Shown here: positions 52,423 through 60,045 of the stretch, piece after piece | Layout of the letters: each line of letters starts with the position of its first letter | Numbering within the stretch: the stretch's first letter is position 1 | Assembly (NCBI RefSeq): GCF_947387515.1 | Contig: NZ_CANDOB010000001.1 | Location: 806,001 to 870,000 of the forward strand | Source: Alkalihalobacillus sp. CinArs1 | GTDB lineage: Bacteria > Bacillota > Bacilli > Bacillales > Guptibacillaceae | Reading direction: 5' to 3' | Length of the DNA stretch: 64,000 nucleotides | Position numbers and translations under genes: made by a program | The notes under the pieces: model-generated | What the model was told of the DNA's origin: nothing | Seen by the model: only the letters and a program-made list of their open reading frames with translations | Databases searched by the model: none

Positions 52423-52629
52423 TTACTTCACATCATACCCTTGCTCTTCTACTGCTTCATTCATATCAGATACAGTGACTTTAGCTGAATCGTACGATAC
52501 ATCTGCCTTTCCTTGCTTCAGATCAACCTCAACTCCTGAAACACCCTCTAACTCGGTTAATGCTGTTTCAACTGCCGATTTGCAGTGGTTGCACGTCATA
52601 CCTTCAATTTTGATCGTTGTTTGTTCCAT
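52423..52629 (-). CDS. copZ: Copper chaperone CopZ
   Basis: A 68-residue HMA-domain protein with the Cu(I) site GMTCNHC (Cys13 and Cys16). It carries Cu(I) to CopA in the cytoplasm. It follows copA in a csoR-copA-copZ operon. Confidence 0.95.
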   Translation of the reverse strand: MEQTTIKIEGMTCNHCKSAVETALTELEGVSGVEVDLKQGKADVSYDSAKVTVSDMNEAVEEQGYDVK

Positions 52630-52656: not shown

Positions 52657-55062
52657 TTATAATTTAACTCGCTTCAATCGAAGTGAGTTCGTTACAACTG
52701 ATACAGAACTGAATGCCATTGCGGCTCCAGCTACCCATGGTGCTAATAGACCGATTGCAGCGATCGGGATACCGATTGAGTTATAGAATAGTGCCCAGAA
52801 TAAGTTTTGGCGAATGTTTTTCATCGTTTTTCGACTTAAGTTGATCGCCTTTGGAATATGCGCTAAGTCTCCTCCAACAAGGGTAACATCAGCTGTTTCG
52901 ATCGCAACGTCGGTACCTGTTCCGATCGCCATCCCTATATCAGCCGTTGCAAGAGCTGGTGCATCGTTGATCCCGTCACCAACCATGGCAACTCGTTTCC
53001 CTTGACCTTGCAACTCTTTTACTTTGTTTGCTTTGTCTTCTGGAAGAACTTCTGCATAAATACCTGTGATGTTCACTTGTTTTCCAATTGCTTCTGCTGT
53101 GCGTTTATTATCTCCAGTAATCATGTAAACATCGATACCGAGATTGCGTAATTCTTGTATCGCTTGTTTCGATGTTTCTTTCACTGTATCAGCAACGGCG
53201 ATGATACCGCTAATGTTTTGCTCGATGGCGATGAACATAGCGGTCTTTCCTTCTGTTTCATAAGCTGCCATCACTTCTTCATGTTCCGTGTACTGAATAT
53301 TTTCTCGTTCCATTAATTTTCTCGTTCCGACCAGTACCCTCTTACCGTCGATCAGAGACGTAATACCGTGCCCCGGAATCGCTTCGAAACTCTCAGCTTC
53401 ATCCACTTTGATTTGTTTTTGTTCACCGTATTGAACGATCGACCTAGCAAGTGGATGCTCCGAGGCCTTTTCTGCGGCTACAAGATAGGATAAAACTTCT
53501 TGTTCTTCTCCTTCAAACACTTTGAAGTCCGTTACTTCCGGTTTCCCTTTCGTAATCGTTCCTGTTTTATCTAACAAGATCGCGTCGACTTTGTGTGTGC
53601 CCTCAAGAAATTCGCCGCCTTTGAACAGCACGCCTATTTCAGCACCTTTCCCTGTGCCTACCATGATCGAAGTAGGTGTTGCTAGACCAAGTGCACATGG
53701 ACAAGCAATCACGAGAACGGCAATCGCAACTTCTAGTGCCTGAGGTAAATCGTATGGGTTCACCCATAAATACCAGACAAGGAACGTTACGAAGGCAATA
53801 CCAACAACGATCGGAACAAAAATGCCTGAGATGATATCTGCCATTCTTTGAATTGGGGCTTTTGAACCTTGAGCTTCTTCTACAATTTTAATGATCCCTG
53901 CTAATGCAGTATCACTTCCTACTTTCTCAGCCGTGATCGTCAAAGTACCATTTTCATTAATGGTTGAACCGATGACCGCATCACCGTTAGTTTTTTCAAT
54001 AGGGATCGACTCTCCGGTAATCATGGATTCATCTACTGAGGACTTCCCTTTTTGGACGCTGCCATCAACTGGAATCTTTTCACCCGGCCGGACGATGATC
54101 GTATCACCAACGACTACCTGATCGACTGGAACCTTCACTTCTTCACCGTCTCGTAAAACACTCGCTTCTTTCGCCTGCAGGTTGAGAAGCTTCGTGATCG
54201 CTTGCGTCGTCCTGCCCTTGGCAAGATCTTCAAACAGCTTCCCAACAAGAATTAGTGTGATTAAAACAGCACTCGTTTCAAAATACAATTCCGGATGGTA
54301 CCCTGGCGTAAGGAGTAATCGAATACCCTCCACCACACTATAAAAGTAAGCAGCTGATGTCCCAAGAGCTACGAGGACATCCATGTTGGCACTCTTATTA
54401 ATAAGGGCACGGTAAGCACCTACGTAAAACGGAGCACCAATATAGAACTGTACAGGAGTAGCCAATAGAAATTGAAACCAAGGGTTCATGAAAAGGTCAG
54501 GCAGCGGAAGAGCAACATCGAACGGAAGATGAGCAATCATGGTGTATAGTAACGGTAGTGAAAGCAAGACCGATATACCAAGCTTTACTTTTTTCTTTTT
54601 TATTTCTTCTTCCTTGTGAGATTTCTTCTCTTCTCGATCTTCTTTAACGACAGCATCATATCCTAATTTCTTTACCTTCTCGATGATCTCATCAACCGTA
54701 ATGGCACCAGGCTGATACGCGACAACACCGGATTCTGTTGTCAGGTTTACCGAAGCTGACGCTACTCCAGAGGTTCGGTTCAATCCTTTTTCGACCCTGG
54801 TTGAACAAGCAGCACATGTCATCCCATGGATGTCTAACTCAACTTGTTCTTTACGAACCCCGTATCCTAACTTTTCTATTTTGTTGACGATGTCTGAAGG
54901 GTTAACTTTTTGTTCGTCGAACTGAACATCCGCTCTTTCCATCGCAAGGTTTACATTCGCTTCAACACCGTCCATTTTGTTTAGTACCTTCTCAATGCGC
55001 TGCGAACATGAAGCACATGTCATACCTGTTATATCGAGTGACGTTTTCTTTACAGCATCCAT
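52657..55062 (-). CDS. copA: Copper-exporting P-type ATPase CopA
   Basis: An 801-residue P1B-1 ATPase with two N-terminal HMA domains (GMTCASC and GMTCAAC, about 6-70 and 74-140), membrane metal site CPC ([13 protein letters not shown]), TGES, phosphorylation site DKTGTITKG and GDGINDAP. It exports Cu(I). It lies between csoR and copZ with gaps of 12 and 27 bases and is derepressed when CsoR binds copper. It is the second copper ATPase of the window, of a different class from CopB. Confidence 0.95.
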
Positions 55063-55074
55063 TTTATCACCTTC

Positions 55075-55404
55075 TTATTTGGAGAATTGTTGGATCACTT
55101 TCATCAATTCCTCTATATGATGATCACCATTTCCTTCTTGAATCGAACTTGCCACGCAAGTTTTTGTATGCCTTTCGAGTAAGGTATACCCTACTTTCTT
55201 TAAAGCAGCTTGAATCGCTGATAATTGAATCAGAATATCCACACAATAACGATCATCACCGACCATTTTCTGAATCCCACGAATTTGCCCCTCTATTCGC
55301 TTCAAGCGATTTTGCAGCTGCTGCTTTTCTTCTTCGGTCCGATTCTCAGATGGCTGTTTATCTGGTTGAAGCTCAAGATCCAAATCTTTATTCATAGTGG
55401 TCAT
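55075..55404 (-). CDS. csoR: Copper-sensing repressor CsoR
   Basis: A 109-residue helical repressor (DUF156 family). The Cu(I) ligands are Cys54, His79 and Cys83, the C-H-C set of true CsoR proteins. The N-terminus has an unusual extra charged stretch of about 25 residues. It is first in the csoR-copA-copZ operon and has a matching operator in its own promoter. Confidence 0.94.
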   Translation of the reverse strand: MTTMNKDLDLELQPDKQPSENRTEEEKQQLQNRLKRIEGQIRGIQKMVGDDRYCVDILIQLSAIQAALKKVGYTLLERHTKTCVASSIQEGNGDHHIEELMKVIQQFSK

Positions 55405-55566: not shown

Positions 55567-55848
55567 CTACCTTCCTCCAAGAAGAAGCGACGTAATCTCT
55601 TCTTCATTGTTTTCAAAGCCGGTAAACGTGTATTGTTTTCTATTTAGTCCCCATAGTGAAGTTGCAGTGATGATGATACCTGGAACGATTCGATTTCCAA
55701 GTTGATCGATCATGTCACTTTCTTTATGGGGAGAAGACGATAAATCGTGCTCTTCATATGCGATCGATGAAGTTGAAAGAAACTCTTTCAATTTTTGGCA
55801 ATCTCCTCAAGTGGGTCTTGTATAAACAGTTACGCTCGTTATATTCAT
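55567..55848 (-). CDS. Glutaredoxin-like protein with in-frame TGA: candidate selenoprotein
   Basis: From ATG 55848 (AGGAGAGG site) the frame reads MNITSVTVYTRPT, then TGA (55807-55809), then GDCQKLKEFL and on to a TAA at 55567, giving 93 residues. The fold is glutaredoxin-like, with the cis-Pro segment RIVPGII. The TGA sits precisely at the first Cys of the CxxC motif, so the site would be Sec-Gly-Asp-Cys. Starting 15 bases after the TGA there is a perfect 8-bp hairpin with loop GUU. It is the last gene of an operon with a CcdA-like protein and an F510_1955 lipoprotein. The alternative is a single-base nonsense mutation of Cys. Confidence 0.75.
55773..55791 (-). promoter_or_regulatory. Candidate bacterial SECIS hairpin
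   Basis: TTGAAAGA and TCTTTCAA pair perfectly around the loop GTT (minus strand). The loop is 23 bases after the TGA and begins with G, which fits the known range and loop rule for bacterial SECIS elements read by SelB. Confidence 0.6.
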
Positions 55849-55877
55849 CTACATTCCTCTCCTAACTGCTGATTTCG

Positions 55878-56609
55878 TTAAAACCAGTATGTGATCGCAT
55901 CGAGGGTCCCGATCACAATCAGTGTCACACCTGCAATTCTTTGTAGAACCAACCCGATCTTTCTACTTCTTTTCATTAATGATCCACTTAAACCGAAATA
56001 CCAGATTAAAAACATCGCGAAAATAAAAGGTAAAGATGTCCCAATAGCAAAAGTAGCTGGCAGCACTGCACCGTAAGGACTAGCGAGGACAAGAGGCATC
56101 AGTAAGATAAAAAACAATGAAAACATGGTAGGACAAAACCCTAAAGAAAAGCTTCCTCCCATTAGAAATGCGCCCCACTTCCCCTTCTTCAAAAACTTTT
56201 CAGGAACTTCACCTAGCTTTAAATTCCAATTCATTTTGAATACCCCTAATAGGTATAAACCGATTAAGATGACAAGCGGTCCGAAAAACTTCCTTGCCAA
56301 GGGTAAAACCTTTGTAAGGCTTTGCTGAAACTCTTGACCAAGCATCCAAACGATCAGGCCAAGCGTCGAAAAAACAACGATCTTACCCAGTATGAACGAC
56401 AACACTTCGCCCCAAGCGATTCCTTTTTGAAATGAACGATTTCCATAGAACGTGATCGCGCCAATATTTCCTGTGAACTGACAAGGGGCAGTCGCGCCGA
56501 GCACTCCTAGAATAAAAGCGGATAACAAAGGAATCGAATTCGTCTGGTAGGCGAGTGTTGTGAGAGGCCCACTAAGCAGTTGACTCAATGAATTAAAAAC
56601 TTCATACAT
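55878..56609 (-). CDS. CcdA/DsbD-family membrane protein
   Basis: A 243-residue membrane protein with six helices. Two redox Cys positions fit the CcdA family: GATAPCQFTGN and LGFCPTMF. It would pass reducing power across the membrane. It is 29 bases upstream of the glutaredoxin-like gene, which could be its cytoplasmic electron donor, and 26 bases after the F510_1955 gene. Its sequence differs clearly from the CcdA at 48127. Confidence 0.87.
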   Translation of the reverse strand: MYEVFNSLSQLLSGPLTTLAYQTNSIPLLSAFILGVLGATAPCQFTGNIGAITFYGNRSFQKGIAWGEVLSFILGKIVVFSTLGLIVWMLGQEFQQSLTKVLPLARKFFGPLVILIGLYLLGVFKMNWNLKLGEVPEKFLKKGKWGAFLMGGSFSLGFCPTMFSLFFILLMPLVLASPYGAVLPATFAIGTSLPFIFAMFLIWYFGLSGSLMKRSRKIGLVLQRIAGVTLIVIGTLDAITYWF

Positions 56610-58518: not shown

Positions 58519-60045
58519 TCAATTCGGCTGATTCTTGTGATCTCCACCAAGATCAAAAGGTGAATAAACACCTTTATAATCTACAATCGTTACCATTCCA
58601 CGATCAGCATGGTTATTATCATGACAGTGAAACAGCCATTCTCCTTGATTGTCAGCTTTAAAATATAGCGTGTATTCTTCTCCAGGCTTAACATGGAGAA
58701 GGTCTTTTACAATCGGGGCATCGTAGTTGGTTCCATTCTTTGCAGCAACTTGAAACCTGTGCCCATGCAAATGCATAGGGTGATTCATATTACCAGAATT
58801 CGTTATCTTTACTTTCACGATATCTCCTTCTTTTACACTGATAGGAGGCGTTTCTGGAAACACGTGATCATTGATTTGAAAAGCTACGCCATCCCCCATG
58901 TCCATCCCCATGTTTAAATCCATGTTATACGTCACGTCCGGCTCAGGTACTTCTTCAAAAATGATTTCTTCACTTCCAAATGAAGTGCCAGTTGCCACTT
59001 CGGATGATGAAGGGGATCGATTGCTTTGCACAGAATCATCATTCCTACTAGAAACCACTGGAATAATTATATCATCTGCATGTTCTTCATTAGCGTTTTC
59101 TTGAATGACTCTAGGTTCACTAGTCTGTCTCGTGTATGATACGTCAATTCGTTCCCCTGGAGCAATTTCCAGCACGCTCGAGGTGCGATCCGCATTCTTA
59201 ACTTCTTCACCATCCACCTCGATCACTTTCATAGAATTCTTTGGAAAAACCAATTGATGCTGCTGGTAACCTGCATTCACAAAGCGTAACCTAGCCGTTT
59301 CTCCTTCTTTCATTACAAGTGGTTCAATGGCCTGTCCCGCTTTTCCATTCACTGTAAACGTATCATACATTTGTTCTGTATCAGATTCACCGTTTCCTGA
59401 CATCGCACCCTTCATCATACCGCCCATGTTCGTAATATCTCTTTTCTCCTGATTGACGGCCCATTCATCAAGCATATAAAACTCGTCTTTGTCATACTCT
59501 TTCTGTTTCTCTTCAATAACAAACGAACCATAGAGACCTTTATCTACCTGCTTGGAGCTATGCTGATGAGAATGGTACCAGTACGTTCCTGCATCGTTTG
59601 CAAGAAATTCATAAGTAAAGGACTCACCCGGCTGCACAGCATCCTGTGTTAATCCTGGGACACCATCCATTTTATTTGGCAGAATCATCCCATGCCAGTG
59701 AATCGTAACCGGAACCTCTAGTTCGTTTTTCAGGTGAATACGAACGTAGTCTCCTTCCGTAACGCGCAAAGGCTCACCAGGCACAGTACCGTTGTAGGTC
59801 CAGGCATTTACTTTTTCACCACCACCGATATTCCATTCCGTTTTCTCCGCGGTGAGATCGAATTCCTTCACAGACCGATCCTCTGGTTCTTGTGCATTCA
59901 CTTCAAGAATACTTGTCTCCCCTTGTTTCACACCATCTGGTAAAGTAGGATCGCTACTACTAGAAAAGGGAGAGTTAATGAAAACCGCTCCTCCTATAAT
60001 CAGTAGAATGACGATCATGAGCGATCCGATAACGATTCTTTTCAT
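58519..60045 (-). CDS. Multicopper oxidase, membrane anchored
   Basis: A 508-residue three-domain oxidase with an N-terminal hydrophobic helix (about 5-25). Copper motifs are HWHGMIL, YWYHSHQ, HPMHLHGH and WLFHCHDNNHADRGM. It is a paralogue of the oxidase at 45420, with a shorter Met-rich loop and no lipobox, so it is probably held by a membrane helix. It may oxidise Cu(I) or phenolics outside the cell. It ends the run permease - SHOCT protein - oxidase, followed by ydhK. Confidence 0.92.
   Translation of the reverse strand: MKRIVIGSLMIVILLIIGGAVFINSPFSSSSDPTLPDGVKQGETSILEVNAQEPEDRSVKEFDLTAEKTEWNIGGGEKVNAWTYNGTVPGEPLRVTEGDYVRIHLKNELEVPVTIHWHGMILPNKMDGVPGLTQDAVQPGESFTYEFLANDAGTYWYHSHQHSSKQVDKGLYGSFVIEEKQKEYDKDEFYMLDEWAVNQEKRDITNMGGMMKGAMSGNGESDTEQMYDTFTVNGKAGQAIEPLVMKEGETARLRFVNAGYQQHQLVFPKNSMKVIEVDGEEVKNADRTSSVLEIAPGERIDVSYTRQTSEPRVIQENANEEHADDIIIPVVSSRNDDSVQSNRSPSSSEVATGTSFGSEEIIFEEVPEPDVTYNMDLNMGMDMGDGVAFQINDHVFPETPPISVKEGDIVKVKITNSGNMNHPMHLHGHRFQVAAKNGTNYDAPIVKDLLHVKPGEEYTLYFKADNQGEWLFHCHDNNHADRGMVTIVDYKGVYSPFDLGGDHKNQPN

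Follow-up and report, generated by a model that had tools for sequence, protein, structure and literature searches.

Glutaredoxins that carry selenocysteine (Sec) in a UxxC motif are included in the selenoprotein tallies of two reviews (PMC13188914 and PMC9312934, in the sections available to us), the former of which also lists an enzyme of Clostridium oremlandii among its references, and the accessible part of a survey from 2006 credits Alkaliphilus, Moorella and Geobacter with selenoproteins of the glutaredoxin kind (PMC1794560). No mention of glutaredoxin was found in the main text of PMC5029168, and within the main texts of the open-licence literature no work on a Sec-glutaredoxin of Bacillales was found by title or by the start of the abstract.

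The gene described here lies in a stretch of 64,000 nucleotides from Alkalihalobacillus sp. CinArs1 (hereafter the window) and would encode a protein of the same family as the known Sec-glutaredoxins, with UxxC at the same place. The branch it represents differs from these in its YTRPTUxDC-type motif, in its Bacillales-type hosts and, in part, in its copper loci, while its C terminus is longer than that of distant relatives in the phylum. Our sole comparison with a studied Sec-Grx enzyme, the glutaredoxin chain 7c10 (PDB), gave a weak match (E 4.8e-4). Sequence comparison with solved structures gave relatives under the names glutaredoxin, glutaredoxin 3, NrdH and thioredoxin; the thioredoxin-named chains 3zij and 3zit, of 78 residues and with no selenocysteine in the name given, match over residues 5-65 and are presumably Bacillus NrdH-like proteins.

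Among the NCBIfam models, GlrX_YruB (TIGR02196) was the best match of the window protein, at 51.6 bits and below the cut-off of 88.55, which was passed by all three scanned members of a set of nine distant TGA-containing homologues. The Uxx-star models NF041212, NF041211, NF047338 and NF041114 cover, according to their NCBIfam descriptions, small Grx-like (seleno)proteins; the first three were matched at E 0.001 or better with scores under their cut-offs (40.0 against 66, 34.5 against 100 and 23.7 against 97), and NF041114 was not matched at E 0.001. The window protein matched 12 NCBIfam models and stayed under the cut-off of each, and the same holds for four other TGA members with full score tables, so that the comparison comprises five TGA members, with nine further entries of alignment A2, among them five TGA forms, outside it and 10 of the 20 TGA forms of the order unscanned. 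Within the known Sec-glutaredoxins, the window gene thus represents a new branch that is apparently unmodelled, and not a new kind. For bacteria of this type, the branch provides a selenoprotein that is small and open to testing, that occurs naturally with either Sec or Cys, and whose hairpin is unusually invariant.

Reading frame, hairpin and selenocysteine machinery

On the minus strand of the window, a frame of 93 codons plus stop extends from ATG to TAG (Table 1) and is open throughout apart from one TGA at codon 14, the site of the first Cys in the glutaredoxin CxxC motif. The protein begins at this ATG and leads through MNITSVTVYTRPT-U-GDCQKLKEFLS, and a ribosome-binding sequence is located 7 bases 5' of the start codon. 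When a residue was assumed at the TGA, the protein matched the Pfam family Glutaredoxin (PF00462) with an E-value of 8.9e-12 and 45.5 bits, above the gathering cut-off of 22.9. An AlphaFold model based on 14 aligned sequences reached a mean pLDDT of 93.7, with secondary structure elements in the order E-H-E-H-E-E-H and residue 14 directly before helix 1 (15-26); P56 is invariant across the 14 aligned rows. The model is consistent with a thioredoxin-like fold in which the active site lies where helix 1 begins and the proline of the cis-Pro motif is in place.

Table 1 Coordinates of the features discussed; positions refer to the window unless another locus (L) is given
Feature	Position	Strand	Basis
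Predicted glutaredoxin-like selenoprotein gene	55567..55848	-	frame, Pfam PF00462, AlphaFold model
Ribosome-binding site AGGAGAGG	55856..55863	-	sequence reading
TGA codon 14, predicted selenocysteine of UxxC; Cys in non-Sec homologues	55807..55809	-	homologue codons
Cys17 (TGC), presumed resolving Cys of UxxC	55798..55800	-	homologue codons
Putative SECIS hairpin, stem TTGAAAGA / TCTTTCAA, loop GTT, 15-base spacer after TGA	55773..55791	-	
Hairpin, first stem strand TTGAAAGA	55791-55784	-	
Hairpin, loop GTT	55783-55781	-	
Hairpin, second stem strand TCTTTCAA	55780-55773	-	
Open reading frame in the mechanical list, TTG start, last 74 residues	55567-55791	-	
DsbD_2/CcdA-type membrane protein, directly upstream	55878..56609	-	PF13386 E 1.3e-19
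CsoR/RicR-type metal-sensing repressor, downstream	55075..55404	-	PF02583 E 7.1e-31; NCBIfam best match RicR, below cut-off
Copper-translocating P-type ATPase (CopA)	52657..55062	-	TIGR01511 629.8 bits, cut-off 397
CopZ copper chaperone	52423..52629	-	NF033795 103.6 bits, cut-off 91
Multicopper oxidase, upstream, same cluster	58519..60045	-	best match TIGR01480, 209.8 bits, below cut-off 478.95
selD with in-frame TGA, same genome	L024 (contig C2) 5464-6513	-	
PhnD/PhnE/PhnC-like ABC transporter, same genome	L024 (contig C2) 2971-5430	+	
Symporter 3' of Sec glutaredoxin, same strand as it	L120 6773-8161; L117 6927-8315		
AhpC-type peroxiredoxin frame with TGA (G045)	L115 8723-9322	+	
Public plasmid annotations starting past the TGA, active site lost	L170 5043-5282; L171 5064-5258		

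Bacterial SECIS elements lie just downstream of the UGA and carry a G near the start of the loop. Judged by this general rule, the hairpin that follows codon 14 has both features. A preliminary description of this DNA had claimed an intact frame from a good ribosome site, interrupted solely by the TGA of codon 14, a hairpin of 8 perfect base pairs and a GTT loop 15 bases past the TGA, and a gene-caller report limited to the last 74 residues; the frame and the hairpin are present as claimed, and the mechanical list of open reading frames indeed holds those 74 residues only, while the stop codon, given there as TAA, is TAG. The same description had also argued that a fitting hairpin would hardly arise by chance. 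In the window, counted on both strands and in any frame, a perfect Watson-Crick 8-bp stem (loop 3-14, stem start 9-31 bases after the TGA) follows 37 of 2658 TGA trinucleotides, or 226 with G-U pairs allowed, so the hairpin alone is only mildly unusual and weak proof; it is the presence of the hairpin in all 20 TGA homologues of the order (see below) that raises it above chance.

The source genome (4.03 Mb, 11 contigs) contains a tRNA-Sec scoring 55.8 bits against an Rfam cut-off of 47 (the other 13 of the 14 matches were under the family cut-off and were left out), which ARAGORN likewise calls tRNA-SeC with anticodon TCA. About 400 bases away on the opposite strand lies selB (365 bits, cut-off 242), and selD (413 bits, cut-off 125) and selA (560 bits, cut-off 268) are both found within 8 kb; sub-cut-off matches of the SelB, SelA and SelD profiles were left out. 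With each of the four components expected of a host of bacterial selenoproteins above its family cut-off, the organism is, by its genes, equipped to make selenocysteine, and within the genus selA and tRNA-Sec exceeded their cut-offs in each of the 14 genomes searched. The selD frame itself contains an in-frame TGA (STKGG-U-GCK) at what we take to be the SelD active-site position, followed by a strong predicted hairpin, and SelD of this genome is probably a selenoprotein as well.

Between selB and selD, we also observed a PhnD/PhnE/PhnC-like ABC transporter, whose binding protein matches the putative selenate-binding family TIGR04553 under its cut-off and which may possibly serve selenium uptake. 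A search of the genome with the SECIS model R1, which finds elements of the same type and leaves room for selenoproteins with other SECIS (selD is absent from its list), returned the gene itself as the only strong match (E 1e-9); at four weak partial matches (E 0.18 to 7.2), no similar combination of TGA and hairpin was seen by eye within 120 bases.

Homologues with TGA or Cys and alternative readings of the codon

Within the genus, the gene is carried by only 3 of 14 genomes and is therefore accessory; all three have the TGA, the two relatives being 75-80% identical, and a homologue in one genome of another genus of the same family (51% identical) has it too. In a sample of 397 genomes of the order (match threshold E 1e-12 or better), homologues were detected in 45 genomes at 48 loci. 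The codon aligned to position 14, read in all 48, is TGA in 20 loci, TGC or TGT in 28 and nothing else, so that an in-frame UGA is aligned to the Cys of homologues, as expected of a selenoprotein; nine of the 20 TGA genomes belong to one genus. Codon 17 is TGC or TGT in every TGA locus and in 23 of the 28 Cys loci, with Ser in the remaining five. A tree of the 48 proteins (93 columns) did not group the Sec rows into one clade and contained four changes between the Sec and Cys states, at least two of them forced by well-supported branches. Our interpretation is that Sec was lost repeatedly; the topology by itself is compatible with either direction, and loss is favoured over gain solely because the hairpin looks homologous.

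All eight hairpin pairs are formed in 19 of the TGA loci and six in the remaining one (G376, without the two outer pairs), whereas the 28 Cys loci form 2-6 of 8 pairs at the equivalent place. Across the 20 TGA loci, the two outer pairs vary on both sides (GC/UA/UG and CG/UA/GC). The covariation score of this alignment was 0.262 compared with a shuffled mean of 0.123, and 11 cells were changed on both sides compared with 2.9 after shuffling, both values being reached in none of 500 shuffles, with kinship among the loci ignored. The count of pairs with two-sided change and the count of further pair types were no better than shuffles, which attained the same values in 341 and 86 of 500 cases, respectively, and five of the eight pairs are invariant and uninformative on structure. 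Codons 22-24 inside the hairpin are GAG, TTT and CTT in all 20 TGA loci without exception. Further 3' in these genes, GAG makes up 22% of the Glu, TTT 72% of the Phe and CTT 32% of the Leu codons; because these codons are fixed against such usage, protein constraint alone does not account for the frozen hairpin core.

The selA gene, by which alone the Sec machinery was judged across the order sample, exceeded its cut-off in 181 of the 397 genomes, compared with the few selenoproteins (three proteins of three families) given for Bacillales in the part of the 2006 survey accessible to us (PMC1794560). It is present in all 20 genomes with the TGA form as opposed to 11 of the 25 with the Cys form, an association for which Fisher tests that treat related genomes as independent gave p-values of 8e-8 (compared with all other genomes) and 3e-5 (compared with the Cys genomes).

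In a sample of 398 genomes of the phylum (threshold E 1e-14), 15 matches were obtained, of which 13 loci were kept after removal of the window's own genome and of one already in the order count (G097), 12 from other classes and one from the same class. TGA occupies the same codon in nine of these 13, all nine from other classes, and Cys in the other four. All nine distant TGA loci, which we call 'Clostridia-like', show GAAAGA, three loop bases and TCTTTC at the same distance from the TGA. The TGA and hairpin core held in common argue that the window gene and these relatives probably descend from a single ancestor, a Sec glutaredoxin that already had its SECIS.

Named public records, which may derive from the same strains or species as some genomes of the order sample, contain the TGA form as well. 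Among named genome contigs, a scan gave one relative, Bacillus sp. NTK071, with a product 77-80% identical to that of the window; its 300 bases around the TGA are identical to those of G011, and it was not counted as an additional genome. Plasmid records with a match numbered 99, of which 91 are from Staphylococcus; the three that were read, none of them Staphylococcus, are plasmids of Cytobacillus pseudoceanisediminis BNO1, Cytobacillus firmus CK19 and Mesobacillus foraminis Bac44, each with the TGA and the hairpin, the latter reduced to its six inner pairs in Bac44. The annotated CDS begins at the codon directly after the TGA in CK19 and 42 bases after it, in frame, in Bac44, while no gene is given at the locus in the self-described incomplete table of BNO1. 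Two of the three plasmid records read thus start the gene past the TGA, which leaves a database protein without its active site, and Sec-glutaredoxin genes of this branch are easily cut short by gene callers.

Taken together, we consider it nearly certain, on the comparative evidence, that the UGA is read as selenocysteine in a glutaredoxin-type protein, and three other readings were weighed against this one. If the gene were an ordinary Cys glutaredoxin, one base changed by nonsense mutation or misread in sequencing would suffice to give the TGA, which is one base from the TGT or TGC of the 28 Cys loci, but the same TGA recurs in 20 genomes of the order, in nine of the 13 distant loci and in the named records, the frame stays open beyond it, and the full hairpin accompanies TGA and not Cys; conservation of the TGA rules such a pseudogene out as far as can reasonably be asked. 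It is just as hard to believe that the UGA is a true stop and that a 74-residue protein is made from the TTG at 55791. That open reading frame exists and the two plasmid annotations likewise start past the TGA, yet the hairpin opens with this codon, which reads TTG in only four of the 20 TGA loci (GTG in 2, GCG in 13, GGG in 1), so that 14 of them have no start codon at the site; moreover, neither strand 1 nor the active site would be part of such a product, while the residues directly ahead of the TGA are conserved as protein. Read-through with another amino acid, such as Cys or Trp, could still give a working protein and is compatible with the sequence as such; we regard it as very unlikely given selA in all 20 TGA genomes, a hairpin with the position and shape of a SECIS by the general rule given above, and a selD whose own TGA presumably also marks an active site. 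The interpretation of the UGA as selenocysteine in the preliminary description is therefore supported by the Sec machinery, the Cys homologues and the conservation of TGA and hairpin. The computational checks it had proposed gave tRNA-Sec, selA, selB and selD in the genome, Cys at position 14 in 28 of 28 non-TGA loci, and TGA and hairpin kept in close and distant relatives alike; of the findings it had named as fatal, a genome without selB or tRNA-Sec is contradicted by the presence of both, and a misread TGT or TGC at codon 14 by the same TGA in 20 genomes of the order.

Gene neighbourhood and possible function

The minus-strand gene order in the window is multicopper oxidase, lipoprotein-like gene, F510_1955 protein, DsbD_2 protein, Sec-glutaredoxin gene, CsoR-type repressor, CopA and CopZ, and it is kept in both relatives of the genus. 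Besides the window, two TGA loci out of 19 have a DsbD_2/CcdA-type gene directly upstream, and both belong to the same genus. The window proteins served as tblastn probes on stretches no longer than 13 kb, some of them cut short by contig ends. One or more of CsoR, CopA, CopZ and multicopper oxidase were found near seven of the 19 other TGA loci (eight of 20 with the window) and near 17 of the 20 Cys loci examined, drawn from 25 Cys genomes, with a CopA homologue near 15 of these 20; all of these are raw counts.

At UGA codon 14, SelB loaded with Sec-tRNA-Sec would bind the GAAAGA-GUU-UCUUUC hairpin 15 bases downstream of the codon, leading to insertion of selenocysteine. The resulting selenol, located where helix 1 begins and partnered by Cys17 in the UxxC motif, may attack disulfides or metal-thiolate adducts, and Cys17 would resolve the intermediate. 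The protein could accordingly be viewed as a selenol/thiol reductase, probably serving copper homeostasis, and thiol redox upkeep in copper stress appears a likely setting because the gene sits between a DsbD_2/CcdA-like gene and csoR-copA-copZ and because CopA recurs near Cys loci. Bacilli generally use bacillithiol and not glutathione, so that electrons are probably supplied by bacillithiol or by thioredoxin reductase.

For the copper role as such, we see the arguments as evenly balanced. That the selenoprotein instead serves general thiol or cystine redox, with the copper genes as mere neighbours on a shared island, is a serious though somewhat less convincing proposal: the same tblastn probes found no copper neighbour at 12 of the 20 TGA loci, including nine of one genus, and a GltP/DctA-like symporter comes next in both loci read of that genus's nine (one of them scanned). 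Against it, copper neighbours recur in varied gene orders at both Cys and TGA loci, both G045 and G376 have a CueO-like multicopper oxidase adjoining the gene, and in G131 a CsoR-type gene lies near it (all below NCBIfam cut-offs). Only tentatively do we extend the copper reading to a widespread, unmodelled Bacillales-type branch of Sec-glutaredoxins dedicated to copper or metal stress, in which the selenol might have been kept as better than Cys against Cu(I)-thiolate or disulfide damage, with a hairpin core unchanged since the split from other classes and several lineages having lost it in reverting to Cys.

Two further observations concern neighbours of the TGA loci. The symporter 3' of the Sec glutaredoxin, on the same strand in both loci read, resembles GltP/DctA below cut-off in L120, and our guess is that it is a cystine carrier. 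In G045, about 2 kb from the glutaredoxin, an AhpC-type peroxiredoxin frame contains a TGA (FTFV-TGA-PTE) at the site of what looks, to us, like the peroxidatic Cys, making it a candidate for a second selenoprotein.
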